Positions 12,845 through 46,348 of a stretch of 64,000 bases of DNA are shown piece by piece. The stretch covers positions 29,297,760-29,361,759 of the forward strand of contig CM026557.1 of NCBI GenBank assembly GCA_015143295.1. Direction: 5' to 3'. The stretch is from Tetracentron sinense (taxonomy: Eukaryota; Streptophyta; Magnoliopsida; Trochodendrales; Trochodendraceae). The notes beneath the pieces are model-generated. The model was not told where the DNA came from. It did no database searches and saw only the letters and a program-made list of their open reading frames with translations. The position numbers were made by a program, and so were the translations under genes. The number at the start of each line of letters is the position of its first letter. The first letter of the stretch is position 1.

Positions 12845-12849
12845 AAAGG

Positions 12850-17574: not shown

Positions 17575-20500
17575 CTGCATTCCAATAAGATAACACTGTT
17601 ACCTTTTGCTCCTACCACAGTAGGATAATGTTACACCTAACAAATTTCCCAATGACAAATAAGAAAAAGATACAAAAGAAAAAAGAAGAAAACATTTTAT
17701 AAAGCCTTACAGGTGGATTTGATTCATTTAAAAGATTTCCTGAGAAAATATTCCTTGTGTTTCGTTTCATGACAAAGAAAACTGCATCTTCAAGATCTCC
17801 TACCAGAGCTTCTAAATGTAGAGTGGTCTCTGCAAAGTTAGAAAGGATAGAGTACAGAGTTGTAAGAGAGGCTATTGCTTGATGTAAAGTTCCAAGATCT
17901 TCATTTCCAAGAGATATATATCATTAACAAAGAACAAAAAAAATATGCAAAATAATTTACAGTAAAGATATGAAAAGAAACAATACAAGACAAGCGCACA
18001 AAAAAATCATATAAAAAAGGAAAAGAAACAGTTAAAAAGAAAGAAAGAACTATCATTTCTCAATATATAAACATCATCTGACACATTACTTGTGTTGCCA
18101 TATCATGTTTTGTATAAAGAGGCACGATTCCATTTTGCACCACATTTCTCTCTGTTATTGGTTGAAAACACTCCTCCAGCACTGCATTTTCAAAAGTCAA
18201 GAGAGAGATGTGCCTTGGAAAGAACCTTGATTTCAAGCAAGGAACAATCAGCTATCATTTCAAATTCCATTAAAATGATATTCAACTCCAATTAGCAACT
18301 CCGTCATGCTGATTAGACACAAGTTCAAGATACACAACATGGGATATAAAAAAGAGCTTTAAAAAATAAATACAAATAAATCCTAGATAGTCTTTATACA
18401 TGAAACAGAATATAAGATATTTAACAAACTCATTGCCTCAAGCTGACGAACCAATGTTTGAAAATTCGAGTGTAATTTTGATAAATCGGCCGAATTATCC
18501 TTAATTCGGAAACTTCTAAGAAAGGTGCAGCAGTTAGAGAGATATAATCTCAGGCTTCTATTGAATCAAAATTGAAGTATGAAGTATGAACTTACCTCAA
18601 TAATCGGCTACAGTTTTACAAAGTAGATAATGTGTAAAACTTGTATAAATCAATAGAAGAACCAATCACTGAATCAGCTTCAGCAAGCTCGAAGGAATCA
18701 GTCTCTCTTATTCATCATAACAAAATTTAAATCCACATAAAAACTTCTAACAAAAGACTCAACGCAAGGCCTATATATAGATAGCTGAAAATTCAGTTCC
18801 TATTCCTATTCTAATCCAAACTTAGAAAAATCTCAATCTGACTTGACTCTTATTTACCTTGAGGAATTAAGAGAATATCTGACTTCTAAAAGCAAAAGAA
18901 GATGTACTTAAATGAAAGATTTCTAATTAAAATAAACTTCCAATAACTCACCTCAAAATTTACTATTTATTATAATCCAAAAATTACTATTTATAGTAGA
19001 TTTTTTTTTGTTTTTTGATGGATAATGAGAAAATTTTATAAATGAGAAAAGAATATACAAACGATGCAAGAAACATCGCCCAGCAAAAACAAAAAAAGTC
19101 AAGCTAAGATACTTGACCAGCTATATAGAAAATCAGACCAACGAACCTTCTCAAAGTCAGCTAGAACAGACGACCAAGAGTATAACAACCACCCAATTTT
19201 AAGAATGACTTTGGGCATCGACTCTTCTTTATCTTCAAAAATTCTTCTATTCCGTTCCTTCCACAAACCCCAACAAATCGCCACCGGTAGCATCTTCCAA
19301 ACCTCATTCCCTTTCTAACTGAACACACCTTTTGACCATCTCATTACAAATTCTCCCATACCCCCTTGCGAAACCCAGTTCATCCCAAAAAGACCTAAAT
19401 AATGATTCCACACTACCTGCGCTTGCGAACAATGAATGAAAAGATGCGGAACACTCTTCTCAGCCTGCTTACACATAATACATCTATTGGGAATTGTCAT
19501 ACACCTATGCTACAAATGATCGACCGTGAGAACTTTGTTTAAAGACGCAGTCCACAGGAAAGCCTGCACCTTCGAGGGTATCTTAGGAGTCCAGATCTTC
19601 TTGAAAGCTTTGGTTTCCCTCCCCTCCTCCCCCACATCCTTCTTCCAAAGCACCGAGTAATAATGTGATGTTGAAAATTCCTCCTCTACTCCCCCTTCCC
19701 GTCTTCTTCTATCTTCCAAATCTTGATGAATCACGCACTCCGTAAGAATTCTTTGTAGCTCCAACCAGTCACCCAACTCTCTCACCCCAAAGTGGTCCCT
19801 ACTAAACCGTGGATCCCACCTAACCTCACCATCATGTACCACATAGCAATCCTGCACCGCCACCTCTCTCCTCATCACCAATCTATAGAGATTTGAAAAC
19901 CTATTGCAGAGCATCCCGTCCCCCAACCAGCCATCTTCCCAGAATCGCACTCTACTCCCGTTCCCAACCCTAAATTTCAAAAATTCCTGAATCAAAACCA
20001 TAGTCGTCATCACCCCTTTCCAAACTCCCACCCCATAAGCCCTCCTCATCGGCTTCGGATCCCAATCACCCCTACAAGCCCCGAATTTGTGTTTAATAAC
20101 CCTCATCCACAACGCCGTCTTCTCTGTATTGAAGCGCCAAATCCACTTTCCCAATAAAGCTTTATTCATGCACTTGATTCTTCTAAAACTCAAACCTCCA
20201 AACTCCTTTGGTCTCACTACCCAATCCCACTTCACAAGATGTAACTTCCTGGAATCCCCCCTGCCCCCCCCCGCCCCCCCCACAAAAAATCCCTACCTCT
20301 TGATCATTGTCCTAGGAATCTTGAACAAAGACATGTGAAAGATTGGAAGACTCGTCAACACACTTTTGATCAAAGTTATCCGCCCTCCTAAGGATAAGAA
20401 CCTTTTCTTCCACCCCGTTAATCTCACCTCAACTCTCTCCACCACCGGATCCCAAATAGCCGTCGACCGTAGATTCACTCCTATTGGCAATCCAAGATGA

Positions 20501-23500: not shown

Positions 23501-26500
23501 GCCGAGCCGGGCTGAACCTGGCCCTTTTAAACCCCTACTAACAGATTGAAACCAAAGGTAGGTCCTTCATAGCCGGGGTAACCAAACCAAGCCAAGTGAC
23601 CACGATACACACTCTAGGTCCATGATTTGTTGATGAAGTGCCTCGATGTGAATCTCTGAGGTGTCTATCATTTTTACTGCCCTCTTAGGCATATTAGCGT
23701 ATTCGGGTGTATAACTCTTTGGTTGCTATATCCAATTGCTCTTACGTAAACTGCAGATGAGTACTAAGCCCTATGAAATCCTTGGGCTAATGTTTGATGG
23801 TCTTTTAAAGTGTTTTGACTAGGTGCTCTGTATGCTTCTTCTCGCCTTAGTTACAAAGTTTTTCAATTTTTTCAAAAAGTCCTAAATTGTTGGTATAATG
23901 TAATGGGCCTCTATTGCCCTCTTATTTTATGTTCTCTCTTGCATGGGCCTTGGGCCCAACCTTGTTTTATTTCCTAGTTAATATAATTACTATAGAGAAG
24001 AGGAAACCCTAACTTCCTCATTCTCTCTTTCTCCCATCTCTCTTCTTTCTCTCTTCCCCTCTTTCTAAAACCCTAGCTACAAATTTACTTGGTATTAGAG
24101 CACAAAGAGGGAAGAAGAAGCTTGATACAACAAGCAACAAACAGCAAGCTAGAAAAGGCATCATAGTGACGTTATTGCCGTATGACTGACGTCAGCCATA
24201 CAGCCTAAGCATGCGGTGCGTTTGAAGGTAATTTTTTAGAGACCTTGATTTTAGGAAAAATTTTAATCATGTAGCATGTGATTTGGTTGAATATTGGTGA
24301 AGTTACAATGATTTGAAGGAAAAATACAAAAAAAATCCACAAAAAAAAACACTATTGAAGTTCAGATTCGATTACGCTCATATGGATCCTTTTTAGTTTT
24401 GATTATTTGTCAAGGCTGGACTGTTTTTTTGCAATGAGTATTTCCAAATTGAGTTTGGTGAATTGGGTGGAAATTTGAAGGAGTTGTGAGCATTTTTCTC
24501 AACACTTTGGTACCTTTTTTTTTCTTGTGGAATTATGTTTTGTGGTTGCTTTGCTAATGGGAGTGCCTTGTGCCACGGTCATCTCGTCCAGTGCGTTGCA
24601 CATGACCATGACCCGTGACTTTGTAAACTTTGTATATGTGAATCCTGTAAAGTTTTGGGGAAAGTATGTAAATACTATTTGTAGTTAAGGGTAGTTTAGG
24701 TACAAAAGTTTGAGTGGTAAAGTTGTAAATAGCCAGTATGACTCTCCAGCAAGGAGGATGTTTTCCTTCTGAAAATGGGTCAAATGCTTAGTTTCCTACC
24801 TTGAGGAGACGTGAGCAAGGTGAGTCCTTGTACATGTCCCTTGTGAAGTTCCTAGCAAGCTCAATCTCCTCATAATTGTAGTCTTAAATTGTTGCCTTAA
24901 GGATCAATAAAGCTACAAGTTGCCTCGGATTGCTTAAGTGTTGCTATAGGTTGCTTAACATTGCCCTTTATTGACTTTGTGTGTTTGTCACTTGGGGTAA
25001 AATTCCTTAAGTGAGTGTCTTGTGATTGGGTGTAGCCGAGTGTTGCATAGTCACTTCGCTTAATAGGGTGTTGGACCATAACAATTGGTATCAGAGTGGT
25101 CATTATGATCCCCTAGAAAGTTGGAATCATGCCCCAAGACCAGAAAAAACAAACAAAGAGCGGATTGAGGACCTCGAGTCAAACACATCCCAACTCGACG
25201 GCCTTGCACAACTTGTTGAGCGTGTTGATGGGATCGAGATGGAGCAAAGAAACGTTGCAAGCACTACAGAGGTGCTTAGCAAGGACTTTAGGGCTACGGT
25301 GGAAGGCCTACAAGCCAACTTGGTGACCTTTCAGCGAAGGAGAACATTCTCATGAGGGCAATGGGGTCGATCAGCTAGTCCGACCATGGGCGAAACTTCT
25401 AGGATTCGAGTTCTAGAACCAAGAAACTATGCTGGTGCCGGTGATGCGAAGGATCTCGAGAACTTTTGTTCAATATGGAACAATACTTCAGGGCAGTTAG
25501 GCCCAACTCGGAAGAGACCAAAGTTACTATGGTCACTATGTATTTGGTGGGTAATACTAAATTGTGGTGGCGAACAAAATATGATGATATGGTCAGTGGT
25601 CGTTGCACCATTGATTCCTGAGAAGATTTAAAGAGGGAATTGAAAGCTCAATTCTTCCCTGAGAATGTCGAGTATATGGCTCGATGAAAGCTGAGACAAC
25701 TTCATCAGATTGGTACAGTGCGTGAATATGTCAAGCAATTCTCGTCGTTCATTTTGGATATCTGAAACATGTTAGAGAAGGACAAGCTCTTTTCTTTCCT
25801 TGAAGGTCTCAAACCTTGGGCTCAAGCTGAGTTGCAAACACAAAGGGTGCAAGATCTTGTGTCAGCGCAAACTGCAGGTGAGCGTCTAACCGACTACACT
25901 CTTGAGGATGGTGGTAAGAAGAAAGCAAATAACTCGGGGAACTCAAACTCGGTTGCAAAGTGGGGGAAGTTCAACAAACCCAAGAGTGTGGGAGGTGACA
26001 AGAGACCTTTAGGGTCCTCACAATCCAGAGGATCAACATAATCCTCGACCGGGTTGAAGACCATTAGTTGTTTCCTTTGTGGAGGGCCACATCAAGTTGG
26101 AATGTGCCTAAAAAAGTCAGATTTGAATGCCTTGCAAGAGAGGTGAGCAAGGTGAATTTGTACATATCCCTTGTGAAGTTCCTAGCAAGCTCGATCTCCT
26201 CATAACTATAGTCTGTAATCTGTTGCCTTAAGGATCAATAAAGCTATAAGTTGCCTCAGATTTCTATAGGTTGCTTTATATTGCCCTTTACTAACGTAGT
26301 GTGTTTGTCACTTGGGGGAACATTCTTCTAGTGAGTGTATTGTGATTGGCTGAGTCGCAAGTGTAGCCGAGTGTCTCATAGTCGCTCTGCTTAATAGGGT
26401 GTTGGACCATGAAACTTGGCTAGCCTCCCTTGGTGTTTTTAAATGGGAAGGTTTTTCATGATTTTTAATGTCATGGTAATATTTTAAGTGTTACTCGACT

Positions 26501-29500
26501 GTGTGTTGCCTTGTGTGTGTTTGAAGAAAAGCCCCATGTCGAACGAATCTCCATCCTCAAGTGTGGATCCTACGGGTGATGGCAAAAGCCATAAGGGTCA
26601 AGTAATGACAACTCTCACTTACAAATCACCTTAGAGAAGCTTGATGGTGAGAATTATATCTATTGGGCAAAGTGTATGGAAATGTTTATTAGAGCAAAGG
26701 GTAAATCGGGATACCTACTTGGATCGATAGAGGAGCCCACCTAGTCGGACCCTAAACACGCCAAATGGGTTCAGGACAATTTGATTGTGATGTCTTGGCT
26801 AACCAATTTGTGTTGCCCCGCATCAACAAGGGCTTGGTGTTTTTGAAAAAAATTTGGGCTAAAAGGGACACCCTTGCTCAAAACACTCGAATGTAGGTAA
26901 CTTTGCCTTATAAGCTCCAACAAGATATCTCCCAAATTCGTTAGGGGGAGATGCCCTTGAATATATACTATGCTAAGTTGAAAGGAAAATGGGAAGAATT
27001 CGATCACTACTCAACCTAGCTATGTTGAGGGTCTTGTTGCCTTCAAGAAATGGATTGAACGGATGCAAATATTTAAGTTCCTCACCAGATTGAACCAGGA
27101 ATACGAGAATGCTCGCTCCCAGATCCTCGGTCTGGATTCTCCTCATGACACTCTTACTCGTGTTTATGTCTACATCTAGAGTGAAGCAAGTAGGAATGAT
27201 GTGATGACTCCTAGCATGATTACTACTCCTGAGAGGTCTGCTCTTTCCTCCACTTTCCAAAGTGGTGAAAGAGGAGGTGATAGAGGAATCCTAGGGGTCG
27301 AGGTAACCGATTTGATGGTTCCTATGCCGATGACAAAGATAAGTTCAAATGTGATTATTGTGGTGACCCTTGTCATACCCGAGATTAGTGTTGGCAATTA
27401 AAAGGACGATCTCACTAGAGAGGGGGTCACAAAGGGAGATTTAGAGGTGATGCCCGTCGCACAGGTGGGATTGGAGACACTTCTGCCCATGTTGCCACAC
27501 CAGCAACCCAGGACGCTCCTTAAGATTATATGGCATCCCTCCACTGTGACCTTGAAGCCATGCGTACAACTATATCCCAGTTGGGGACTCCTTCCATTAC
27601 ATCCACATCCTCTTTTGCACAGTTAGGTACCTCTGCCACTACCCTAACTGTCTCTGTCCCATTTCCCCATTCCTCTTGGATCATTTGATTCTGGAGCCTT
27701 TGAGCATATAACTGGTATGTCTTTCATTTTGTCTTCATATCATCTATATTTTTGGCGAGATAAAGTTGGTATTGCGGATGTTACAATGTCTCTTATTGCA
27801 GGCAAGGGTACCATCCATGTTTCTCCATCTATGCAGTTGTCTACTGCTTCATGTACCTAAAATCGATACTAATCTCTTGTCAGTTAGTAGTATTATCAAG
27901 TCCCTCAAATATAGTGTCACATTTTTTTCCTTCTCATTGTGTTTTTCAAGACCCGGTGACGAGGCGGGAGTGGTCATGAGAAGGATGGTCTCTATAGCTG
28001 GATTCATCTCCTATGATGCGTGCTATCAATCCTCTTAAGAGCACTAGGGTCATTTTGACCAGTTGATGAAATGACATTTTCATTTAGGCCATCCCTCTTT
28101 TTTGCTTCTCAAGAGGATATTTCCTTGGTTGTTTCTTTCTTTATCTGATGTTTCTTTTAAATGTGAAACTTGTGAATTGTCTAAACTTTATTGGGTCTTA
28201 TACCCTGCTAGCACTTCTAAATGCTATTCACCTTTTGAGCTTGTTCACTCAAATGTACTGGTTCCTACACCCATTACATCTGCGTTTAGTTATAAAGATT
28301 TTGTGACTTTTGTTGATGCTTTTTCTTGTGTTATTTGGGTTTATCTTCTTCAGTCTAAATTTGATGTTTATGCTCCTTTTAAAGCTTTTCACATGATGGT
28401 ATGCACTCAATTTGATATTAAAGTTAAGATCCTTCGCTCCGACAATGGTGCGGAATACTTGAGTGGGGACCTATGTACCTATTTTACAAACCATGGAATT
28501 ATATACCAAACCACTTGTGTTCACACCCCATAATAGAATAGAATTGTTCCTTTATTTTTTGTTTAAATAGAATGGAGTTGTGGAACGCAAGAATCGACAT
28601 CTTCTTAACATCACCAGATCGCTTCTCCTTGCCATGCATGTTCCCAAATACCTTTGATTTGAAGTATTTACTTTTCGTTGTCTTTCTTATATGGCATGTT
28701 CCCGAACACCTTTGATATAAAGCCTTACTTTTCGTTGTCTATCTTATAAATTGGATGCTCTCACGGATCTTGGCTTTTAAGGCCCCACTTGACATCCTTG
28801 CACCTACATCTCCCTATTTTCCTATACCACCCAAAGTGCTTGGGTTTGTCTACTTTGTCCATGTGCCCAAACCTGACCACACCAAACTTGATCCTCATGC
28901 GGTCAAATGTATCTTCCTTGGATATTCTCCCACTCAAAAGGGTTATAAGTGTTACCATCCTCCTTCCATGTTATGTCTACGGATGTCTCTTCTTTGAGGA
29001 TGCTCCTTACTTTCTTGCTCTGAAGACTACTATTCAGGGGGAGAATGTTGAGGTTGAGGAGTTGTCTTCTCGTATTTCTCTTCCTCTTCCTGTTATTGAT
29101 ATCCATGATTCTTTTGTGGTTGACATTAGGAATTAGAAAGGAAAGATTTGCAGGTTTATTCCAGGCGCCCAAGATCTATGTCTCAGGCCCCCTGCCAAGA
29201 TTTACCCTCATATTTGGATCATTTCAACTCAAGTAATGATTTTGATCCCTCACCTATTAATGATTTCAATCTTCCTATTGCCATTAGAAAGAGAGTTAGA
29301 TCTTGCACTCAACAGCCTATCTCAAACTCTCTTATAATTCTCTATTTGTTTCCTATCGTGCCTTTGTTTCTTCCTTGTCTTCGGTGTCTTTACCTTGTAG
29401 TATCTCTGAGGCTCTTGTTCATCCTCAGTGGAAGGATGCGATGTATGAGAAATGAGGGCTCTTAAAAAAAAACTACACATGGAAACTTGTAGATCTTCTA

Positions 29501-32500: not shown

Positions 32501-32659
32501 GGAATAACGTCCAAAATCGCAAGGAGATTCATTTGTGCTAAGAGAATGTGTTAAGACACCTTTAAACCAGTGTTCAAAAACTCGAAAACTCGACTCAGAA
32601 GTTAGTCGGGTCGAGCAACTTGAAAGATTCGAAAAAAACTTGTCTCAACCAACTCGGAA

Positions 32660-32696
<37 letters not shown>

Positions 32697-35600
32697 AATA
32701 TTATAAAACTCCATATAAAAAAATAAAATAAAAATATAATATTTCTACAAGAGTATCATCAAATAACTAGCATTTATGATAGATATTAAACAACATTGAA
32801 CTAAAGCACCACTACCACTAGCAAACAAGATAAGTGTCTCTAACAATTTGTGGCAATAATAATTTCAAAATTTTTTTCTAGCCAGACCAGAAAAAAAAAT
32901 CTTCTAGAGCCTTTTTCTCCAAGACTAGGTTATGCTGTGGTTTTGTTCTTGTAAAACAGAAAAGGATCCGTTGTTGATCTGTTAATAACAAACAGGGTAG
33001 GCCCACCGCCCACCCTATTCTGGCCTACCCATTTAGGGTTAGTTGTAGACCATGCTATGATGGTTATGGAAGGCGGTCACCGTGCTGTGACAACTGTGAT
33101 AGAAGGGGTAATACAATTCATCGTAATTACTTTAGTGAAGAAAATCTGTCATGCATGCCTATGTAATAAGGGTCTTCACCATTTCAAATTCTCAGAAAAA
33201 AATAAATTGCAGCAATGTTCCAAAAAAAATGGCGTACATTGGCACTATTAGCTTTCGCTCTCAACAAATTTTGAAACCCTAAACCCTTGAAATCGACGAA
33301 ATAAGCTTATAAAAGGGATTTTTTTTAATTTTAAAAATTGCATTTGTGTCTCGTTAAAGACTCGCCCAAGTTGAGTCAATAAACCGACCCAACCGAGTTC
33401 GAGTTTTCTCTGATTATTCATAATCGAGTTTTTTCAAGCGAGTTGACTCGAAACTCAGCCGAGTCGAGTTGACTCGGCCGAGTTTCGAGTCAACTCGCCA
33501 AGTTTTAGTACTATGCCTTGAACACCTGCTAAAAAGCAATTATCTACTTCCTAAATTCACGTTATACTAAGATGGAAACCTTACTAAAATTCCTAATTAA
33601 GATAGTGATGTGGACGTTGGTGAGTCCAAGAAATTTCAGATTTACCAAAGGAGGATGAAGAAGAAGAAGATCCCCATGTCACTTTGGATAGATGACTTGA
33701 GGCATTGAAGACCTCATATGCACACATAGAGCATTAGGAATGCCCCACATTAGAAAGGTGTGCATATGAGCTGATTTAGCAGGTATTATTTAGTTAGCAA
33801 AAGCCCAATGGGCTGGATTAGTACTCAGGAGGGTTATTTTATTAGTTATTTCATTAGTTTGGGCTATTATAGTCTTTTTATTATGTTTTGGTTATTTTGG
33901 TCTTTTTATAATTAGAGTTTCACCTATTTAAAACCCCCTTTTGCTATAAACTTTCAGTTAATGAATCATAATCAAATATTAGAGGCTTTTGAGCATTCTC
34001 CAGCGATTGGAAATTGCTGTGATGCCATGGGAGTGATTCCTTAAGAAATCTAAGGTGTGCTTTTCAGTTTTCTCTATTCTTTCTATTGATCTTCTTTGAT
34101 TTTCTGTTCTTTCATTGAAACTCTAACTCACAAAAAACCCTAGATCCTATCTCCCTTGCAAGAAACCTAACCTAACCTTCCCTTCCCCGTGACTGTTACA
34201 GCCCTTCCCCAGCCCCTTTTGGACTGCCTCACCTGCTCTAGACTGCCGCAGCCTTCCCACTGCCTTTCGCTTGTCACCAGCCACCCTGCAGCCTGTCCTA
34301 GTGCTGCTGCACCACCAGAACCTTATTTCCTTGCTGCTCCTGCTTCTACAGCCTGTCCTCTTCATCTTACAGCCCCTACACCTGTTCTTTCTCAGCCGCA
34401 GACCACCATACCCCATCCCAATGCAACTGCAGCCCCTCTATCTGTCCAAAACATTAAAACAGTAGAAACCAAAACCCTAACCTCTATACAGTCATCTAAA
34501 ACCTTCCTTATCTGTCCAAATCCCTTAACAGCAGGCCCTATGATCCCTGAAACCCTAAACCATAACCCTATGTGATCAAAACCCTAAATCAGAAACTCAA
34601 ATCCTTATGTTTGATTAAACCTATATCCAAAACCCTAAATAGCAAGTAACCTCCTTCAAAACCCTAGAAAAAACCAAGAAATTTGCATTGAACAAAAGGT
34701 TAATCCCTAAGCTTGTAGAAACATAGAATTCCATACAACCCTCATAATATAACTGAGGGTCACTATTGTAGGTATGTGACGTGGCCTTGAATCTCCATAA
34801 AATTGTTTACTTGAATTTTCTGGAACAATGATTTATAATAGGATTGTAATTTTATAGTTTTCTTTATTATTGTTAATTCAATCTTGATCTCAGCACAATA
34901 GATTTTAGGTCATTGCATAGTCCTACATCAGATAGCATGTTATTTAAGGATATCATGGGGGATTGAGGCAGGAGGATCCCCTATCCCCGTTTCTCTGTGA
35001 TTGTATTAGAGTCCTTAAGTAAGATGTTGTCTAGAGCCGAGGGGTCAATGTTCAAAGGTTTCTCGATTGGCCAAGATCAACTTCGTATCTCTCATTTTCA
35101 GTTTGCAGACGATACCCTGATCTTCTGCAATGGTATCCAGCATAAACCTTTTGTATCTACGATGTTTTCTTTGATGCTTTGAAGTTGTGTTGTGATTGCG
35201 AGTGAATTTGACCAAATCAGAGATCGTGTGTGTGGGGGAGGTTTTAGACATTGATCAGCTTGCGTTGCTTTGGTTGTCGGGTGGGATCTCTTCCATCTGT
35301 ATACCTGGCTATGCCTCTAGGGGCAGGGTTCAAAACTAAGGTGGTGTGGGCACCGGTGCTAGACAGGTGTGCTAAACGGTTATCATAATGGAAAACAAAT
35401 TTCCTATCGAAAGGGGGAAAGTTAACCCTTATCCAAAGCATCCTCAGCAGTCTTCCAACGTACTTCATGTCCACCTTATCCATCCCTAAGTCGGTGGTTG
35501 TTTCTCTTGAGAAATTACAGCGAGAGTTTCTTTGGCATGAGAAAGTTGATACCTTCAAATATCATCTCGTCTCTTGGAAGCAAATTTGCCGATCCAAGGA

Positions 35601-38600
35601 GGAAGGGGGGTTAAACCTCAAATCTCTGGTCCAAGTTAATAAGGCTCAGGTAAATGGGTTTGGTGTTTTAGGGTGGAAATGGAGAGTTTGTGGTGCTCTG
35701 TGATAGTGGCCAACTATGGGGAATCTTCATGTTGGGTTCCGAGAGAGGTTAGGGGGTCTTATGGAGTGGGTTTATGAAAGGGTATCATAGCGATGGCTAG
35801 TTTGGTTATGCCTCATTTTAGGTTTAGAGTGGGGCAAGGTTCAGAGGTAAGGTTCTAGAAGGACGTGTGGAGTGGATCCACTAGTCTTCAGGATGACTGT
35901 GGCCATTTGTTTTCGTTGGCCTCTAATAGGGAGGCTGGTAGGGGACTATTTTGAGAGGTAGTGGGAGGGGGTGGTATGGTGTCCTAGGTTGAGACGGGAT
36001 TTAAATAATTTGGATATTGAGGAGGTGTTGAGACTTTTGGCGAGAATTAGTTTGGTTTCCCCATGCCCAGGAATTAGAGATTACAGGGTTTGGTCTTGAA
36101 GCAACCATGGTCGTTTCTCAGTAAGATCCATTTTACAGTCATTTGATCCAGCTCCCTCGAGTCCGTTCCCTCATCGGATTGTGTGGAATCCGGGCATCCC
36201 CTCCAAGGTATCTTTCTTTCTCTAGAATGCAGCACTACATAAGATTCTCACATGTGATCACTTACAGCATAGAAAGTGGAGATTAGCCAACCGATGCTAT
36301 ATGTGCATCCAAGAGGAGGAGACTGTGGACCAGTTTTGCTCTGCATTATCCTATTGTGTTTGGTATTTGGGGTTATTTCCTCTCCCGCATGGGGATGGAC
36401 CGGGTCTTCCCTTCTTCCTTTCACAACTTCTTATCTTGTTGGTCCTTGGTCAGTGTGGATGGTGCTCGAGAAGTGATATAGTCAATTCTACCTGGAGCCA
36501 TCTCTTGGATGATATGGAAAGAGCGAAATCTTCGAGTCTTTGAGGGTTCTTCATCATCCCTGTCTCGCATTCGGGCGCGCATTAGGATGGTTGCTTTGGA
36601 ATAGGCAGGGCTTCAAAGTGAGGGCGAGGTGCTTTAGGAGATATTGGGTTGAAAGCCATGTATATCGATTAGAGGTCATGATAGCCACCTTCTAAGTTGC
36701 TTTTGAGTTTATTTGCTTGTAAACTCTAGCTTCAAGTGCTTTCATGCCTTTCTAATTTGGTTCTACTTTTTAATATATTTTGTGCCTTTACCGATCAAAA
36801 AAAAACATTGGAACACAATCATAAATCAAAATATGCTGAGACAATTTAGGAAATATTTACCCGAATTAATAACATGCTAATTCTAGAAAATTGCAACATA
36901 TAATAAAAATGAAAACTAACCTAAATTTCTAACCTAAGCATGTGATAAAGTCATGCGTAGTTCCAACGCATACAAGCACTCAATCAAGTAAGCAATTTTT
37001 TTTTATTTTTCATTTGTTTGGCTTTTTTGGCTCTAGCAATTTAGGCTAATGCGAGTGTGGAGCATGTGGTCACAAAAATAAGTCCTATATGTTAGGACCA
37101 TGCATACTCAACTATCTCAATTAAATTTTTTTTGAGCTGAATAGATTCTAAAGATACCACAAAACAATAATTATGATGCTAAACATGGTGTTGGCCCATA
37201 GCTTAATATCTCTAGATCGTCCAACTAATTTAACTTCTAAAAAAAATTCCCAAATCAGAGGATCACTCATCTTTGATTTAGAAAGTCTTTTTTTTCTTTG
37301 ATCGGTAGATTTAGAATGAATGAAAAGAGGGGCAGTGCTCCCTCGCAAATGTATAACAAATTCCAACCATGAGACTCAACAAAGGTCAATCATAGACTTT
37401 CCTCTGCAGATCATTGAAATTCAGCATACAAGATCTCACTCAAAAGCTCAAGCATGAGGTAGTGTGCCTTTGCCAACTATGAGTGGCGATGCCAGACCTG
37501 GTGCTCACCAACGGCCGCTTCCTAAGGAAGCTCTTTTCCTCTTTGAAGTCTGTGTATGGTATTGATCGGGTAAGATATAGAGAACCACAACAAAGAGAAT
37601 TCTTTAGCCACCATCTTCAAAAAGTTTCAGAGAAAACAAAGATCAGAACCGCAAGACCCTCGTTGGAATGGAAACCAGAACCGGCCTCGCAAAAGCACTG
37701 ATCCACTGCCCCTTCACTACTTGAGCCTTTCTGCAATTCTTTCATATCTCTTGCCTCTTTAGAAGACGACAACTTCCAGTCCTCCCCCTTATAAACCTAA
37801 ACCTTGGGCTTAGCATTTTTTGGCCCAATTTGGAGAGCTTCTGGCCCACTTCTCCAAAGCCTGCCTCCTCGATCAAGGGCTTGGCCCTACTAAGAAGCCC
37901 GAAACCTCAACTTAGGTTTATGCTCTTGGCCACTCCTGAAACCCCCTAGCTGGCACCCACCCAAGTAAGCCCTTAAAGTTCTTTAGCTATCTACCAGTAC
38001 CTTCGAACCCTCATTGCCCCTAGGGGGTAGTCTTCCACCAGCCAATGACCCAGCCCTCCAAGTTTTCTTTCACTAAATACTGGTAGTCCTAACATGTTAT
38101 TGGGTGGTGGTCCACTTATAGGGTCAAATCAATACGTTCTAAGAAGAAATATTTGAATATCAATTTTCCCTCTAATTCTTGTCACTTGTCCACCCCTATT
38201 AAATGTTTCTGATTTGTTACTATTTTTTGCAGGTGTTTCCTAGGTTCATACTCTACCTTTGACGCTTTTTAGGTTGAGCCATCTCCCAAGGAACCTACAA
38301 TCTCCAATGAGGCTTGAGTGAACAGAATACCTGTTAGTCTGTTACTGCTTGAGACTCCTCCACAAGGATTATAACACTTGTTCCACCGAGCGCCACCTCA
38401 GTATCTTCTACCTTGGTTCTTGCAACCACTGAGGCCACCACCTTCATCGCTGATGAGAGATCCTCTACGTCTCCTAAAATAGTGATCTCCACCAGAAACA
38501 AATTCGAATTGTGTTGGACTGTTACTAATCTTGGAATGGCAAGGACCCACCCCCGATGTTCTAATAAAAGGCTTACGCTTGAGAAAGAGGTCGTAGAATG

Positions 38601-41600
38601 GTGCATTTTCGCCAATCCACCATAGCAAGCTCCTATCCTTTCAAACACCTCTTTGATTGATAGATGAAAAGGGAGTCCAGATAGCGCCCCACTTTGGTTT
38701 AGATATACCTGTGAAAGACAAGTCATTTGCATCAGGCCAGCACTTGTGGAATGCCATGGAAATGCCACCTTGGAAGGGGCTTCTCAAGCTTAACTCGAAT
38801 AATAAGTCATCATTTCTGGTGTTATCGAATATTATCGCTCTCTCTCAGTATCAAACGGTAGAAAGATTACTTCGGACAAAGAAGTGCCCTGATTTTGTGT
38901 GTATTCTTGAGCCTCTTCCCAGTTGACTGAAGATGATGAGGTTGTAGCAATAGTTGTCAAGTTCCATCTATGCATAGGGGAGAGTACCTCCGCGGCATTC
39001 AAACGCATCATTCGACCAACTATTTCTTTACTAACACCATTATCCCATTTTGATGCACCATTAGATTTTATTTATGATAGAGATCCACTGTTGGATCACG
39101 ACTTGGAGGACTATTGACCGTCGGATCGAGAGATGGCGATTGGAGGGCCTAGATCAGGCCATAGATGGGCAACCCCCCACTTTAGTTATTTAGTTGCTTA
39201 TTTTATCTAGATTGTTATTACTTTGTTTTGTCCATTGTAGTTAGTTTATTATGAGAGAACTTAATAAGGGTAGTTTGGTATTTGTCTTTTAAGTAGGGTT
39301 TTATGATTGTCTATAAATACTCTCTTTAGAGATTAGAAATTTACAGAATTTTTATGAATGAACATGACAGCTTTTTTGGCTTTTAGAATCTCCTGTGATG
39401 GGAATGGTGTGATGCCAACCTTGGAGTGATTCTTAGGTAATCTTATCTACTTTCTTCTTCTCTATCTCTCTCAATCACTATTCACGGTTACTATTCACGG
39501 GTTACTATTCACAACAATTATTCTCCATTACTTCTTCTCTCTATTTTGTGTTTTTTTCTTTACAAAACCCTAATTACACAAACCATAGAAACCATTTCTT
39601 GCTGCCCCCAAATCCCTAGCCCTTCTCCCATCACTGTTACAGCCCCCCAGCCTAACTCCCAGCACTGCTGAACCTTTCCCTAATTCCTACAGTCCCCCCT
39701 ATTGCTGCCACACCTGTTCCCAAGTCCTTGTGGCTGCAGTAGCATTTCCCAACCTTCCCCTATTGCTGTCCCAGCCATACTACAAGCCCAGAACAGCCTA
39801 TACCTTATTGCCACATCCCCTTGCAGCATTCCTATTGCTGCAGCAACACAAAAACCCCTCTGCTTGCTGTCCCCTTACCCTACAGCCACCCCAGTCCATA
39901 TTAATTGCTTTCCCTGACCAAGTTCAACCCTAAAACCCTAGAGACAGCCTTTCCTTAAAGCAAAAGTCAAAAATCTAAAACCTGATTCTTTTATATTTCC
40001 TTTTATTATTGCTACTGGGTTTTTTTTGTGATTCAATACAACAATGTTTGAAACCCTAAATCACATGCATATTACAACCCACTAATACTTGTTGAGCCTA
40101 GAACTATCTTCTGAAATCCTTAATACAACAATGTTTGAAACCCTAAATCACATGCATATTACAACCCGCTAATACTTGTTGAGCCTAGACCTATCTTTTG
40201 AAATCCTCAATTGAAAAGGGAAATTACATTGATTATTTAACTGAAATCACTAAGCTAGTGGAAGTTCCCACTTCCATTACGATCACCCAATTCAGATGTG
40301 AATGTTCATTATTACGGGATTGTGGTTTGACCTAGGGTATTACTAATTCCCTTTTGGGCTTTCTTTATTGTAGTTGTGGAGTCCTAAGTAATTTTATGAT
40401 TTCCCTTATTACCACAATTCAATTTTGATCTCTCAATCACATCATCCTAGGTTTATTGCATTGTCCTGCATCAACTTTGGTATCAGAGCCAGATTAGCTT
40501 AGGTTCAAGCTCATTAACATCTCATGCATCACATATAGCCTTAGGACACTAGCTAGTCTCTAACCAAACATGGACCCTACACAATTCAACCAAGTCATAG
40601 GTGAATCTAGTAAGTATTCTGAGAGCACCAATGAGAAGTCTAGAGTCATGGTTGTTAGGAGTGCCCTAACTCAAATCAAGGAAGATGATGACTGGCGTAG
40701 GAATTCTATTTTCCATACGTACGTCAAGTGTGGTGAAAAGAGTTGCAAGCAGTGTAGTCAAAGCGTCCAGGCAACGCCTAGGCGATAGGGGGTTCCCTAG
40801 GTGAGGCGATGCCTAGGCGACCAAAATTTATTTATTTTGTTTATATTATATAAGAATTAACGATTGCCTATCTAGATCATGATCTAGGCAATAGGGGTCC
40901 TGACTAGGCGAGGCGGTGGCCTAGGCATTGCCTAGGCCACATTTTGACTACACTGGTTGCAATGTGATCATAGATAGCGGGAGTTTCACGAATGTGGTCT
41001 CATCTAGTACTATCTCCCGTCTTGGATTGACGCCAATAGCCCACCCTCAGACCTATCGAGTTGCGTGGATAGATACATCTTCCATCCCAGTTGTCCGGAG
41101 GTGTCTTGTCCCTATTCAGTTCGCCTTATATAAGGACACATTGTGGTGTGATGTTGTGCCTATGGATGTGGGCCACATCATTTTGGGTCAACCTTGGTTA
41201 TTCGATAAGGATGTAACAATATTCGATAGATCGAATACATGCTCCTTTATCCATGAAGGCAAGAGGATAAAGTTAAATCCTCTCCCACCCAAAGTTCTCA
41301 CTATTGGGAAGGACATGAATACGGGTGAAAGTCATGAAGAGAACAATTCTAAATCCCTTCACAACATCAGTCTCAAGGAGTCCTTTATAGAGCTACCACC
41401 AGCTCCTAAGCCCCCTATGGAGCTACTATCAGCTCCTGAGACCCTTGTGGAGCTACCACAAGCTCCCGAGTCCATTGTGTAGATTCCACTAGCTCTTGAG
41501 TCCCTTGTGGAGCTACCACAAGCTCCCGAGTCCCTTGTGGAGCTTCCATGAGCTCTTGAGTCTCTTGTGGAGCTTCCACCAACTCCTGAGTCCCTTGTGG

Positions 41601-44430
41601 AGATTCCACTAGTCCTTAAGTCATTTGTAGAGCTATCACCATTTGTGGTGTCAGTAGTCCCTAAATTTCAGGAGGTCTTCCCTGAAGATGTACTAGATGA
41701 GTTCTCACTCATGCGTGACATCCAACATGCACTAGATCCCATTATCATAGGTCATCAGAGTGAGTCCACAGATTCATTTGCATAACAAATTCATGGTTTG
41801 CATAATGAGATCGAATAACAAATTGCAGTCAATAATGAAACTTATAAAATATATGTTGATTCACATCAAAACTATAAAAAGCTTTAAGAGGGAGTTTATG
41901 AGATGACAATGGTATCAAGGGCCCGTAGTGTTGGACCACATAAGATCTTGAAGCGGGTTGATCCTAATGGATATATGGTGGACTTTTCACCTGACATGGG
42001 AACTAACCCAATATTTAATGTGGAGAACCTTGTTCTTTTCAGAGGTTTAGCAGCATCACCTATTGACCCATATGATAGCCCACATGATGACCTTCCCGAT
42101 GAGCTTAGTCCAGACTCACCCTTCATCTCAGACCCACCTCCCCTAAACCTGCCTCCCCCAGACATACCGCCCCTTCTTGATGGCCCTCATGCTAATCCTA
42201 TTCTTGACTCACCATTCGCCTAAGACCCACCCCCCCAAACCCGCATCCTCCAGACCTACCTCTCCTTCATGATGACCCAAATGTTGATCCTATTCCAGAC
42301 CCACCTTCTCTAGACCCACCTCATGTCCACTTCCACTATTATTTTCTCCTTCATTTTCATTGCATCTACTACTCATGCCTAGCATTACAAAAGAGATAGA
42401 GGATGTCTTGGAAGTTCACATGGTTTCTACTAGACACGGGAAATATCACAAGTATCTCACCAAGTGGAAAGATCGATCGAGATGGATCACATTAGAGACA
42501 GATTGTATTTGGCATTCAGGGCGGATCATGCGGGGTGAGTTGCAGCGACTTCTTGGAGCAGTAAGATAGTTTTATTTCGCCAGTGGCGAAATCTTCTCAG
42601 TCGAGGAGAGTTAGCGGACATCGGACCGTTAGATTTTGTTTATGATGGACATCCACCATTAGATCACGACTTGGAGGACGATCGACCATCAGATTGAGAT
42701 GGCGATTGGAGGGCCGATATCAGGTCATAGATGAGCATAGGCAGCCATAGTGGCCAGCCCACCCCTTTAGTTATTTTAGTTGTTTATTTTATCTAGTTTT
42801 TTATTACTTTGTTTTGTCCATTGTAGTTAGTTTATTATGAGAGAACATAATAAGGGTAGTTTGCAATTTTTCTTTTAAGTAGGGTTTTATGATTGTCTAT
42901 AAATACTCTCTTTAGAGATTAGAAATTTACAGAATTTTTATGAATGAAGCTGAGAGCTTTTTTTACTTTTAGAATCTCCTGTGATGGGAATGGTGTGATG
43001 TCATGGTACGATGCCAACCTTGGAGTGATTCCTAGGTAATCTTATCTACTTTCTTCTTCTCTATCTCTCTCAATCACTATTCATGGTTACTATTCAGAAC
43101 AATTATTCTCCATTGTTTCTTCTCTCTATTTTGTGCTTTTTTCTTTGCAAAACCCTAATTACACAAACCCTAGAAACCATTATCTTGCTGCCCCCAAATC
43201 CCTAGCCCTTCTCCCATCACTGTTACAGCCCCCCAGCCTAACTCCCAGCACTGCTGCACCTTTCCCTAATTCCTACAGTCCCCCCTATTGCTGCCACACC
43301 TGTTCTCAAGTCCTTGTGGCTGCTGTAGCATTCCCCAACCTTCCCCTATTGCTGTCCCAACCATACTACAAGCCCAGAACAGCCTATACCTTATTGCCAC
43401 AGCCCCTTGCAGCATTCCTATTGCTGCAGCAACGCAAAAACCCCTCTTCCCTGCTGTCCCAAGCCTTCTATAATCCCCCTCTGCTTGCTGTCCCCTTAAC
43501 CTACAGCCACCCCAGTCCATATTAATTGCTTTCCCTGACCAAGTTCAACCCTAAAACCCTAAAGACAGCCTTTCCATAAAGCAAAAGTCAAAACCCTAAA
43601 ACCTGATTCTTTAATATTTCCTTTTATTATTGCTACTGGGTTTTTTTTGTGATTCAATACAACAATGTTTGAAACCCTAAATCACATGCATATTACAACC
43701 CACTAATATTTGTTGAGCCTAGACCTATCTTTTGAAATCCTCAATTGAAAAAGGAAATTACATTGATTATTTAAAAGAAAGTCTGAAATCCCTAAGCAAG
43801 TGGAAGTTCCCACTTCCTTTTCGATCACCCAATTCAGATTTGAATGTTCATTATTGCGGGATTGTAGCTTGACCTAGGGTATTACTAATTCCCTTTTGGG
43901 CTTTCTTTATTGTAGTTGTGGAATCCTCAGTAATTTTATGATTTCCCTTATTACCACAATTTAATTTTGATCTCTCAATCACATCATCCTAGGTTTATTG
44001 CATTTTCATACATCACATTTACTTGGGTGATCCTATTGGGAAGGGGGTAAACCCCAAGATGTTTGGTTTGAAGAGGACTTACAACTTTGTGAGTTTGCTG
44101 CCCTTGAGAATGAGTAGCATATCTTGGCATCACCAAATTGAAGTTCAGTTCACGTTTGGTTCGTTCAATTAATGGTTTTTTTTTTCTTATACCTATAAAA
44201 GCCGAAAGTCCTCTCGAACCACACCCCCCCTCTCTCTCATCTCGGCTCCCCTCAGTGACGAAACCCCAAATCTGGCTCACCGGCGTTCGTCTAGGCTCAC
44301 CGGCGGCGACATCTCCTTCTTCGGTAATCTCTTCTCTCTCTCTCCTTCTCTGTATCTCTGAAATTTCAAAGAGAAATTTATCTCACTCTCTCTCCCTCCC
44401 TCCTTATCTCTGAAATTTCAGAGAGAAATT

Positions 44431-44474
<44 letters not shown>

Positions 44475-46348
44475 TCTCTGATAGTTATTACAAATTGTCG
44501 GAGAAGGATTCATCGCCGAGAGTTGTAACTAGTTAATGCATACAAGGATGAGACAGTCAGCAAGAGATATCATTCGAAAAAGGTCTGCGATCGATTTTAA
44601 GGCAGGGCAAAAACATGTATTATGGGATGATCCTTGGGCCCAAGCATTGAAAGGTGAGACAAACAATACTCAAGCTCCCTGATTGTTTCACGGTAAGGTT
44701 GAAGATATTATAGACGCAACCAATAATCAGAGGAGGACACGTATCATAGACTCTCTTCTTCCACCCACCACCACATTCAAAACACACAAGATCCTCCTTC
44801 CATTAACAGAGGAGGAAGATGTAGTGGTATGAGATCGAAGAGGAAGGGGCTTACTCAAAAAATTCTGCCTACTACAATCTTGACACCCCCAAAAAATGCT
44901 TAGTGGTAGATTTGTAACAGTTAGAGGACTAATAGTATCATTAACATCAGACAAAGATGAGTTATGGAAAAGCATCTGGTCAATTAGTTGCCACTGGGTG
45001 AAGGACGCCTTACGTGCAGAAGTAAAATTAGTTGAAAGGGAGATTAGGCAACCAATTATATGCCCAATATGTCGGGGTACCATTATTCTTTTTGTAGTGA
45101 CGAATTGCTCCTAAGAAAAGGAATTTATCCATTTTTCGAGATCTCAAAGCGGAGTGGAATAAGAACTCTTGAATGAAAATGGAAATGGAAAAAGAGATGT
45201 AACTCCAGTTGCTTAGGAATTGGTAAGATCTTTGGCGGACTTGTTTTCTGCTTCCTCGGAAGGATGATTAACCTCAAAATCATGTCTTAATGAAGTGTGA
45301 AGAGGTAGAGGAGGTATGGTTTGGGTCCCATCTCTCACCAAGATTGTTGATACTACCCTTTAACTCCTTCGCAGAATGCTTTGAATCTTGGTAGATCAAC
45401 AATCAGATCATGAATAAAGTCTCCATAAATGCCTTCAAACTGATCATATGTTGGACCATGTGAATCTTAAACGACAGAAAATGTTATCCTTATATGCTTC
45501 TCTCATCTTGTTATGATGTAATCAAGGAGTGCTTTAATGTCTTAGATGATGTGGGTTAAAGAATGGATAGCATCATAGCAACCAATATCTTTATTCCAGG
45601 ACAGGAACATAGTCACTTCATGGGAAACAATTGGGCTATATCATTGTTAAGTGCATACAAACTGTTGTTAAATGCATACAAGCTAACTCTGACAAGCTAG
45701 AGACAGACAAACATACCAGCATAATCGCGAACCATGTCGATTCGACGCAATTCCTTTGCAAGCAACGGCAACTCCTCGCGTAGAGTCTTCCCAATTTGCT
45801 TCAAACCCACCTTCTCCGTCTCTCCTATAATCAGCCCCAGAAAAAAAATTAATAAATGATTCACGATATTAAAACTGCCTTTAGATCCACCGCCCCCATT
45901 TCTTCTAAAACTCACAAATCCATTCATACCCATCATATCAAAGCCACAGAATAAACAAACATTTGGATTATAAACTTAACGAATGCCGTACAAGGCAAAG
46001 TTGTAAGGGAAAATTTTGAAAGAAAAAAAAAATGTTTCTGGAGCTAAAGTTGGGGACACCCTTCTAACCTCGAGAGGAATAGAGACCAAAATTCAAAAAT
46101 TTGAGATTGAGCTGATGAAGAACACTTTTAATGCCGTTTGAACGAGAAATCCATGTAGTAATGAGCCCGGAGAGATTCTTCTGCAGATTTATAAGATATC
46201 GGTCCAAGTCGACGCAATTTTTCTTCAATTCTGTCGCAAGAGCAGCGGCCATAGAAAGATCTTCGCAGGTCTTGAAATGCTCGTCCAGAAACCCTAACTG
46301 GTGCGGGGAGAGGTCAATGTAGTTGGGCAAAACAAGAAAAACTTCCAT
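15598..46348 (-). CDS. MAG2L: RINT1/TIP20-family tethering protein, MAG2-like; four coding exons
   Basis: Coding exons are 46348-46069, 45824-45717, 17829-17711 and 17574-15598, giving about 827 residues; Arabidopsis MAG2 and MAG2-like are near 800. All introns are GT-AG. Phases fit: the split codon across the giant intron restores DYAETTLHLEALVGDLEDAV, matching MAG2's YAET..L.TLVGDIEDAV region. The N-terminus is helical and coiled-coil-like (LATELKKN.., REELPLLAKELRRI). The RINT1/TIP20 domain follows from roughly residue 320, with FALVYKITRDF, SLSIFCDRPDWL-type (here ALSIFCDRPDWL, ~452) and REWSEDVNFLEM. In plants these proteins sit on the ER with SEC20-type SNAREs in a Dsl1/NRZ-like tether for Golgi-to-ER transport; MAG2 mutants mis-sort seed storage proteins. 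The start has a good context (AAAATGG). MAG2L rather than MAG2 is my preference from the sequence of exon 4, with less certainty than the family. Confidence 0.93.
17711..17829 (-). CDS. MAG2L: MAG2-like exon 3
   Basis: The 119 bp exon starts after TTCTAACTTTGCAG, a strong acceptor with a pyrimidine-rich tract, and ends before GTAAGG. It gives two bases of a split Glu codon plus 39 codons, including LEALVGDLEDAVFF, the family's conserved LDTLVGDIEDAV block. Intron 3 (17710-17575) is 136 bp. Confidence 0.92.
17830..18998. other. Intron 2, acceptor-proximal stretch without recognised elements
   Basis: AT-rich intronic DNA, about 1.2 kb. Possible old repeat-like sequence at 18440-18960 (tcggccgaattatcc, gaacttacctcaataatcgg) could not be assigned. 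No conserved coding frame is seen. Confidence 0.5.
18999..21199 (-). mobile_element. L1-type LINE, 5' truncated, minus strand
   Basis: Minus-strand frames encode, in order, the RT palm (KAYDHVDWGFLEEML, GCPLSPFLFIMVAEAF, catalytic LQYADDTILF near 20690-20720), thumb and connection (20523-20293 and 20283-19510, with PSKVQAFLWTASLNKVLT), and a zinc-binding zf-RVT region (CIMCKQAEKSVPHLFIHC, 19480-19420). It ends with LWKERNRRIF and an A-rich tail (plus-strand T-run 18999-19018). The endonuclease and ORF1 are missing, as in a usual 5' truncation near 21199. Frames are interrupted at several points, so it is dead. A C-homopolymer patch lies at 20256-20281. It is sense to the MAG2-like gene. Confidence 0.9.
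21200..23231. other. Intronic DNA, no element assigned
   Basis: Mostly AT-rich. A direct repeat of aaggagcttrcccat occurs at about 21197 and 21250, at the LINE boundary. The minus frame at 23070-22789 (93 codons) is hydrophilic with a coiled-coil-like end but resembles nothing I know. The forward overlap at 22805-23047 is its shadow. Confidence 0.45.
23240..23537. mobile_element. hAT-type MITE, 298 bp
   Basis: The ends are tagggtgtcaatggg and, in reverse, taggggtttaaaaggg. It is flanked by an 8 bp duplication with one mismatch, ctaataga (23232-23239) and ctaacaga (23538-23545). The interior is rich in ggcccgg/gggcttgg motifs, a family seen in many plants, and includes a short (cttggg)n run. 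Eight-base duplications and these ends point to hAT. There is no coding capacity. Confidence 0.8.
23888..24089 (+). repeat. 5' LTR of the copia element (202 bp)
   Basis: It runs from TGTTGGTATAATG to the base before tggtattagagc. It contains a CT-rich stretch near its end and ccctagctac. Confidence 0.85.
24569..26414 (+). mobile_element. Gypsy-type LTR element remnant nested in the copia leader
   Basis: An LTR of about 515 bp (24569-25083) is followed by a primer site tggtatcagag (25086) and a gypsy-type gag fragment (25386-26040, with a block ending RLTDYTLEDGG). A second, partial LTR copy (26143-26414) repeats the last ~280 bp of the first. Pol is absent, so it is a deletion remnant or a non-autonomous member. 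The LTR start is approximate. It lies between the copia primer site and copia gag, so it inserted after the copia element. Confidence 0.75.
30910..31099 (+). repeat. 3' LTR of the copia element (190 bp)
   Basis: It begins TGTTGG right after the purine-rich gacagggag and matches the 5' LTR through ccctagccac. It lacks an ~11 bp CT segment found in the 5' copy. Confidence 0.85.
31105..32555. other. Intronic DNA, origin unclear
   Basis: Before the copia insertion this joined the sequence ending at 23882. A minus frame at 31704-31468 has a protein-like look (GYRPWLEN, AFAMGRHILRGPS) but I cannot place it. The following ~700 bp are repeat-like (ccaaggatagtcatctcacg occurs in two variants near 32065 and 32125). 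This is probably an older, unidentified element. Confidence 0.4.
32567..33521. mobile_element. hAT-like MITE, ~955 bp, with inverted 'actcg' ends
   Basis: The left end starts ccagtgttcaaaaactcg with dense cgactc/gagtcg motifs; the right end carries their inverse (gagttgactcggccgag, then caactcgccaagtttt). The flanks acacctttaaa (32556-32566) and acacctgctaaa (33522-33533) look like one duplicated site. A (TA)n(TG)n microsatellite lies inside. No transposase is visible. Confidence 0.65.
32660..32696. repeat. (TA)n(TG)n microsatellite
   Basis: About ten TA units followed by eight TG units, inside the large MITE. Confidence 0.95.
33606..34930 (+). mobile_element. Solo LTR of a gypsy element (1325 bp)
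   Basis: It starts TGATGTGG and ends ctacatca, with a perfect 5 bp duplication GATAG on both sides (33601-33605 and 34931-34935) and no internal region. It shares layout and end sequence with the LTRs of the gypsy element at 39051-44015 (tgatg start; TATA-like leader; gtgatgccatgggagtgattcc-type block; Pro/Ala-rich frames in 'acagcccc' repeats; catca end), but is diverged, so it is a related subfamily. Recombination between two LTRs is the usual origin. The 128-codon frame inside is a product of the C-rich leader and not a gene. Confidence 0.88.
34936..36805 (+). mobile_element. L1-type LINE, 5' truncated, plus strand
   Basis: It opens inside the RT domain (DPLSPFLFV-like sequence, then ISHFQFADDTLIFCNG, a catalytic FADD, near 35085-35135). 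It continues with the thumb (LEKLQREFLWHEK, SWKQICRSKEEGGLNLKSL), a zf-RVT region (IVWNPGIPSK near 36180; RCYMCIQEEETVDQF near 36300) and ends in a 9-base A tail after ttaccgatc. Endonuclease and ORF1 are missing. The frame is interrupted repeatedly, so it is dead. It is antisense to the MAG2-like gene and directly abuts the duplicated GATAG of the solo LTR. Confidence 0.85.
36806..38333. other. Intronic DNA, no gene recognised; part may be LINE ORF1 remains
   Basis: 36806-37440 is AT-rich and featureless. 37440-38330 is more GC-rich and, read on the minus strand, may be the hydrophilic tail of the LINE ORF1 found next to it, but I see no firm motif. Confidence 0.4.
38334..38935 (-). pseudogene. 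LINE ORF1 fragment (DUF4283-like), minus strand
   Basis: The 144-codon frame has the plant LINE ORF1 pattern: a 'GLPFHL ... EVF+RIG..YGG' motif (here SGLPFHLSIKEVFERIGACYGG) followed by a segment like 'W.R+L......P..L.+.......++WE'. Sequence upstream on the same strand to about 38935 fits the preceding part with breaks. In intact LINEs this protein binds element RNA. No matching ORF2 follows on the same strand, so the piece is an orphan. Confidence 0.6.
39051..40473 (+). repeat. 5' LTR of the gypsy element (1423 bp)
   Basis: It starts TGATGCACC right after CATTT and ends tgcatca. A TATA-type ctataaatac lies near 39312, followed by a CT-rich leader and a C-rich block (acagccccccag). An internal direct repeat of the 'acaatgtttgaaaccctaaa' segment (about 40042 and 40128) is absent from the 3' LTR. 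Confidence 0.88.
40478..40490 (+). other. Primer binding site (tRNA-Met type)
   Basis: The sequence tggtatcagagcc lies four bases after the LTR end. This is the standard initiator tRNA-Met site. Confidence 0.85.
40750..40955. mobile_element. hAT-type MITE, 206 bp, nested in the gypsy element
   Basis: The terminal inverted repeat is cagtgtagtcaaa at both ends, with an 8 bp duplication gttgcaag/gttgcaat (40742-40749 and 40956-40963). The inner part is built on cctaggc/gcctagg palindromes. It inserted after the gypsy element. Confidence 0.88.
40964..41380 (+). CDS. Aspartic protease region of the gypsy element
   Basis: The retropepsin active site IIDSGSFTNVVS is followed by HPQTYRVAWID, WCDVVPMDVGHIILGQPWLFD and SFIHEGKRIKL, which is the normal chromovirus-type protease signature. 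It lies downstream of gag remains and upstream of where RT would be. Confidence 0.8.
41385..41640 (+). repeat. ~30 bp coding minisatellite in the protease-RT linker
   Basis: About eight units of the type gagctaccacaagctcc(c/t)gagtcc, encoding repeated ELPxAPES(L/I)V-like octa- to decapeptides. The region lies in the variable linker before RT, where length change is tolerated. Confidence 0.8.
42619..44015 (+). repeat. 3' LTR of the gypsy element (~1397 bp)
   Basis: It matches the 5' LTR from about 42629 and ends acatca before the CATTT duplication. The first ~10 bases differ from the 5' copy, so the start is approximate. TATA-type ctataaatac is near 42898. Confidence 0.85.
44186..44530 (+). 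repeat. CT-rich microsatellite tract with an upstream TATA-like box
   Basis: A tacctataaaagcc motif (about 44189) precedes about 280 bp rich in (tc)n, including a pure run at about 44431-44470, and two copies of atctctgaaatttca. On the plus strand it looks like a promoter plus leader, possibly of the decayed LINE that follows. It is antisense to the MAG2-like gene. Confidence 0.5.
44540..45560 (+). mobile_element. Decayed LINE ORF2 C-terminal end (zf-RVT region)
   Basis: Plus-strand fragments follow the plant LINE pattern: ARDIIRKRSAIDFKAGQ then LWDDPWAQ (family: GxxWRVGNG..I.+W.DPW+P), KVEDIIDATNNQ (V.DLID), a segment ending IILLPLTEEEDVV-like, IICPICRG (zf-RVT Cys pair) and a late 'ICW.IW..R' echo near 45440. 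There are many stops and frame changes. It is a fossil LINE inserted near the intron donor. Confidence 0.6.
45717..45824 (-). CDS. MAG2L: MAG2-like exon 2
   Basis: The 108 bp exon follows the acceptor GATTATAG and ends at the GTATGT donor of the giant intron. It encodes a Gly-completing dinucleotide, 35 codons (ETEKVGLKQI .. REELPLLAKELRRIDMVRDYA) and one base of the next Glu. The segment aligns with MAG2's EDLPSLAKEVAQVESVRAYA region. Confidence 0.92.
46069..46348 (-). CDS. MAG2L: MAG2-like exon 1 (start codon)
   Basis: The exon has 93 codons plus one base from ATG at 46348, with donor GTTAGA after the codons for SSR. Intron 1 (46068-45825) is 244 bp. The helical N-terminal region (FLDEHFKT, ATELKKNCVDLDRYLINLQ) has the coiled-coil character of the family. 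The ATG is in a favourable context and no earlier in-frame ATG with family similarity is seen. Confidence 0.9.

Follow-up and report, generated by a model that had tools for sequence, protein, structure and literature searches.

The 64,000-nucleotide window analyzed here (the whole stretch of DNA, C7:29297760-29361759 of the 1,161,278,568-base genome of Tetracentron sinense) contains a gene that we identified as MAG2L. Four exons were recognized, and together they comprise 2484 nt, or 827 codons and a stop, with no internal stops. Exons 2 and 3 are separated by a very long intron, intron 2. Exon 2 ends at 45717 with GATTATGCTG, followed by the donor gtatgt, and exon 3 begins at 17829 with AGACC, preceded by the acceptor tttgcag. 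The intron cuts codon 130 (Glu) after its first base (G+AG). The original prediction had described one gene of four exons with an intact frame, interrupted by a phase-1 GT-AG intron of 27,887 bp that splits this codon, and this observation was confirmed: the window gene is the intact MAG2L of T. sinense, and it is one gene.

The MAG2L product contains a RINT1_TIP1 domain that matches the profile in full (PF04437, E=2.2e-31, positions 1-514 of 514). Our first homologue search, made with the window protein, listed 120 proteins, 95 of them near full length. Within this list, the product was 62% identical over its full length to proteins from Telopea and Macadamia named MAG2L; the listed homologues with a MAG2-type name were MAG2L, and many others had no such name. 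The window protein was more similar to MAG2L than to MAG2 proteins from other plants, and a Tip20-like CATCHR fold was found for it. The domain and the nearest named full-length relatives agree with the MAG2-like tether gene that had been proposed, and with high confidence the product is predicted to be a Tip20/RINT1-type subunit of the Dsl1/MAG2 tethering complex on the side of the endoplasmic reticulum. A sequence search of PDB gave two matches (E 0.09) to chains named aBAK, which we judged to be chance. Excerpts of a study in Arabidopsis (PMC8966843) describe redundant roles of MAG2 and MAL (MAG2L) in vesicle transport, and also mention a T-DNA (transfer DNA) in "the fourth exon" of MAL, an exon that is likewise present in Tetracentron. 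Arabidopsis MAG2L/MAL (At1g08400) belongs to the RINT1-TIP1 family and shares the RINT1_TIP1 domain with the window gene; the Tetracentron gene probably differs from it in its 27.9-kb intron 2. Judged by their titles, the matches listed in a literature search included no paper on MAG2L in Tetracentron. An in-frame ATG at window 17580, 6 nt before exon 4, opens a 660-aa frame, and a Davidia protein (P0041) begins (MQDLG..) at the matching place.

Conservation of the exon 2/exon 3 junction was assessed in two sets of homologues. In the first search, 91 of the 95 near-full-length proteins aligned across the junction without a gap, as the original prediction had noted for the family. A second search, made with the MAG2 gene on C4, listed 120 of 592 proteins; when the deposited Tetracentron protein P0121 was left out, 114 of 119 were gap-free, and the five exceptions were irregular at the junction or adjoining it. 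Some homologue proteins diverge exactly at the junction. In tblastn, 9 homologues, of which 8 included the N-terminal exons, matched the MAG2L exon positions in the window. The same 9 gave nothing significant inside intron 2, where the remaining matches had E 0.75 or worse (alignments overrunning exon 3 by a few dozen bases were excluded from the tally). A further conserved exon in intron 2, which would have spoken against the prediction, was found neither in these alignments nor at the junction of the 91 gap-free homologues.

A profile search of the genome gave eight RINT1_TIP1 matches (ten candidates scored), and among these the only other modelled full open frame was the gene on C4, which is MAG2 by its relatives. 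At an E threshold of 0.001, the window protein did not match the sequence found on C17. The MAG2 protein is approximately 40% identical to the window protein; its gene has the same exon order, with intron 2 likewise in phase 1 and at the corresponding residue. Because this residue and phase are shared, intron 2 predates the split of MAG2 and MAG2L. Its position is old, since the junction is gap-free in most homologues, lies within one long helix of a homologue's structural model and is shared with MAG2. The MAG2 intron is 15,130 bp compared to 27,887 bp in MAG2L, and both hold LINE-like (long interspersed nuclear element) sequence and a long terminal repeat (LTR) element. This length, from the one intact paralogue found, is contrary to the simple expectation of a short intron in relatives. 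A MAG2-like copy on C10 (exon 1 to exon 3 approximately 10 kb) was considered as a third intron length and dropped, as exon 2 was not found and the frame was broken.

Intron 2 owes its length to inserted repeats, among them LINE, copia and gypsy elements (Table 1), and the spans assigned to elements total 18,619 of its 27,887 bp. LINE piece A has an RVT_1 match (E=1.4e-19) and a zf-RVT match just below the Pfam cut-off (E=7.4e-6), and its span takes in an adjoining open reading frame (ORF) at 21307-21618 without a Pfam match. It matches piece B in tblastx over 19195-20850; piece B has a weak zf-RVT match (E=2.8e-4), also below the cut-off, as are several transposon domain matches in this intron. 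The copia LTRs (23888-24090 and 30910-31100) have a Kimura two-parameter (K2P) distance of 0.109 over 191 sites, and the flanks TAAAT/TAAAC are not decisive as a target duplication. The gypsy-type LTRs (39051-40473 and about 42625-44015; K2P 0.058) are bounded by the target duplication CATTT at 39046-39050 and 44016-44020, and after 40473 stands what we take, from its motif, to be the primer-binding site. This element gave weak matches to aspartyl protease and Tf2-1-like SH3 domains, and no reverse transcriptase or integrase domain was found in the two ORFs scanned. In the genome search for dispersed repeats, 4872 candidate places were obtained and the best 40 scored; among these 40 there was no second copy of 31101-32560, a stretch covered by this single search. 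Rfam at gathering scores gave no match. The domains, LTR pairs and CATTT duplication bear out the prediction that the intron is filled with transposons. That these are nested was not borne out; all of the recognized elements sit side by side, and none was seen interrupting another.

Table 1. Features of the MAG2L gene, its intron 2 and related loci (window positions unless a contig is given; LTR, long terminal repeat)
Feature	Position	Strand	Description
MAG2L exon 1	46069..46348	-	280 nt; start codon at 46348; end phase 1; 6/9 homologues match from their own residue 1
MAG2L intron 1	45825..46068	-	244 bp; GT-AG
MAG2L exon 2	45717..45824	-	108 nt; homologue tblastn matches
MAG2L intron 2	17830..45716	-	27,887 bp; GT-AG; phase 1; Glu130 split
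MAG2L exon 3	17711..17829	-	119 nt; homologue tblastn matches
MAG2L intron 3	17575..17710	-	136 bp; GT-AG; phase 0
MAG2L exon 4	15598..17574	-	1977 nt including stop; entire RINT1_TIP1 domain inside
LINE piece A	19195..21618	- (gene strand)	reverse transcriptase 20536-21054; zf-RVT 19513-20292; frame broken
Ty1/copia element	23888..31100	+ (antisense to MAG2L)	integrase, RVT_2, SH3_retrovirus; frames broken
Dispersed repeat, ~0.95 kb	32561..33516	.	high-copy; 61-bp near-palindrome (92%) at 33438-33498 near one end
LINE piece B region	33602..36652	+	repeat matches 33602-34930; LINE 3' part 34958-36652
Ty3/gypsy-type element	39046..44020	+	LTR pair, presumed primer-binding site, weak domain matches
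MAG2 paralogue	C4:49406948 on		4 exons; 806 aa; exon 2 border at 49407442 and exon 3 border at 49422573; MAG2 by relatives (search finds proteins named MAG2)
Truncated MAG2L 3' copy	C7:28948198-28950049		many indels, two stops
Truncated MAG2L 3' copy	C7:30550141-30552174		matches in overlapping pieces
Truncated MAG2L 3' copy	C7:30802554-30804700		1-bp and 22-bp deletions
Truncated MAG2L 3' copy	C20:32746119-32748288		one stop

The genome contains five occurrences of the exon 3-4 DNA (15598-17767): one in the window, one on C20 and three at other places on C7. Compared with the whole window, the 5' breakpoint is at 17767, inside exon 3, in three of the four copies and at 17424 in the fourth. 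Three aligned copies differ from the window exon 4 by a synonymous divergence (dS) of 0.03-0.06, and the three copies compared belong to longer segments of shared sequence. All four copies have sequence resembling LINE piece B on their upstream side. Exons 1-2 of MAG2L were found in the window only, the other matches to that part being MAG2-type exons on C4 and C10; they were not found in the sequence (up to 50 kb) preceding the C20 and C7:30.80 copies or in the 20 kb preceding C7:28.95. Because the other copies are 5'-truncated and lack exons 1-2, the window holds the only complete MAG2L gene seen. The copies were also considered as partners from a whole-genome duplication, an idea that was dropped given the breakpoint shared by three of the four, the location of three on C7 and the low dS.

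Taken together, these data are best explained by an intact MAG2L gene whose old phase-1 intron 2 was swollen to 27.9 kb by transposons and is most likely spliced out; we give this explanation a probability of about 0.9. Intron 2 has the marks of a U2-type intron, with GT-AG borders, a frame that is kept and a position and phase common to the paralogue. Most likely, the U2 spliceosome would remove it whole or in successive steps, so that 45717 is joined to 17829. Judging from the sequence, the gene would be transcribed through intron 2, the intron spliced and the protein produced. By analogy, anti-silencing factors of the IBM2/ASI1/EDM2 type may aid this transcription; excerpts of one article (PMC7145194) describe IBM2-type factors as needed for transcription through heterochromatic introns in rice and Arabidopsis. 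Several points weigh against this explanation. The gene structure is derived here from genomic DNA, and no deposited protein with a length of 0.55-1.75 x 827 aa was identical to the window MAG2L. In other plants, NCBI names N-terminally truncated "isoform X2" proteins, and transcripts starting after intron 2 may exist in Tetracentron too.

These isoforms could indicate that MAG2L is functionally split, such that transcripts of exons 1-2 end early in intron 2 and exons 3-4 are started in or after the intron to give an N-terminally truncated tether. Truncated models of this kind occur in Cornus, Nelumbo, Juglans, Magnolia, Carya, Jatropha, Prosopis, and Cajanus, and an ATG stands in frame just before exon 4 of the window gene. 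Early polyadenylation in heterochromatic introns is also described for rice and for Arabidopsis ibm2 mutants in the same excerpts (PMC7145194). However, unused 5' exons would be expected to decay, whereas exons 1-3 keep conserved in-frame coding and intact splice sites, which makes a functional split very unlikely. A related idea, which we regard as speculative and rather improbable, is that, in both MAG2 and MAG2L, intron 2 has long served as a regulatory dividing point between the exons of the N-terminal arm and those of the body. The intron would then have grown in parallel in both paralogues, and transcripts starting later would encode tethers that lack the arm, as is suggested by the X2 models in other plants. 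The N-terminal arm of Tip20 docks to Dsl1.

The two halves of the gene could also have come from different places and been wrongly set 28 kb apart by an assembler confused by the four truncated 3' copies, three of them on C7. Yet the window contains no N characters, exons 1-2 were found nowhere else, and exon 3 is complete here, whereas three of the four copies have it truncated at 17767. The halves are also in the correct order, strand and phase, and MAG2 has the same layout; an assembly error is thus extremely improbable. Division of the long intron into two shorter ones by an additional exon would fit the residues added at the junction in a soybean protein (P0059) and in MAG2 of Corchorus (P0208) and Gossypium (P0236). 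Such an exon has hardly any likelihood when the junction is without added residues in nearly all homologues of both searches and tblastn gave no significant separate coding match inside intron 2.

Transposon-swollen introns like intron 2 of MAG2L are already familiar among the structures of plant genes. At 1.16 Gb, the Tetracentron genome is much smaller than those of gymnosperms. According to excerpts of one report (PMC9364684), long repeat-filled introns (>20 kb) are kept in gymnosperm genes, as in Tetracentron MAG2L. The excerpts of a grapevine study (PMC3058033) list 2,697 large introns (many >3 kb, with a class >20 kb) made up of >80% repeats, with introns 1 and 2 favored among the 39 genes compared, and state that gene predictors split genes at such introns. 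As in MAG2L intron 2, the content there includes LTR elements and LINEs, and the large introns of the 39 genes are mostly 5' ones; the differences are that another species and other genes are concerned and that splicing in grapevine was shown by expressed sequence tags. MAG2L intron 2 is real but, given the introns of this type described in grapevine and gymnosperms, ordinary in kind.

The deposited gene models show what such introns can do to annotation. The deposited Tetracentron MAG2 (P0121, HHK36_007220; 1327 aa) begins with approximately 140 residues encoded upstream of MAG2, continues with exons 1-2, then has 381 extra residues and ends with exons 3-4. Pieces of the 381 residues map inside the 15.1-kb MAG2 intron (C4:49408383-49413834). 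Two LTRs (C4:49408515-49409088 and 49413667-49414225; 92.7% alike) enclose an interval in which most of these pieces lie or whose edges they cross. Three pieces searched alone gave weak matches below the cut-off to Retrotrans_gag (E=0.01), gag-asp_proteas (E=0.018), and Gag_p10 (E=0.21). A Pfam search of the entire P0121 at E 0.1 found no retroelement domain, which counts against a retroelement source. A retroelement is nevertheless the likely source of these residues, because the LTR pair surrounds the pieces, which is the better support, and because of the weak gag and protease matches. Two other deposited proteins, P0006 (HHK36_027288) and P0008 (HHK36_011664), have a foreign N-terminus joined to MAG2L residues 149 or 161 onward, with the match ending near residue 630; by contig and identity, their most likely sources are two of the truncated copies, the one on C20 and that at C7:30.80 Mb.

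The original prediction had expected annotation to go wrong at the long intron, by splitting the gene into a short N-terminal model and a truncated one. The trouble itself was evident, in that P0121 carries intron sequence and no deposited protein of the lengths searched was identical to MAG2L, but instead of a clean split we saw models fused to intron and foreign sequence. No separate N-terminal model (0.55-1.75 x 169 aa) was found at E 0.001; deposited models outside this range and that of 0.55-1.75 x 827 aa escape both searches. The average annotated intron in Tetracentron is given as 283 bp in excerpts of one article (PMC7709256), compared to 2,308 bp in a table for its only sister genus, Trochodendron, in an excerpt that lacks the start of the table label (PMC6859433). 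The former article puts the split of the two genera at about 31 million years ago. The two averages hint that long introns may be under-annotated across the Tetracentron genome. MAG2L and MAG2 illustrate cleanly how gene models break down at introns filled with transposons.

Other repeats were observed around MAG2L and its copies. An LTR element at window 1581-12846 (ORFs 2998-8291), flanked by AAAAGG, is absent from the C20, C7:28.95, and C7:30.80 copies, where the empty site reads straight through. On C20 and at C7:30.75-30.79 Mb, two truncated copies are preceded by long arrays with a repeat length of approximately 850 bp. Upstream of MAG2L, the window contains an LTR-like direct pair (57889-59268 and 62607-63967; K2P 0.031) and a tandem repeat array at 55664-57273 whose spacings are approximately 43 and 129 bp.
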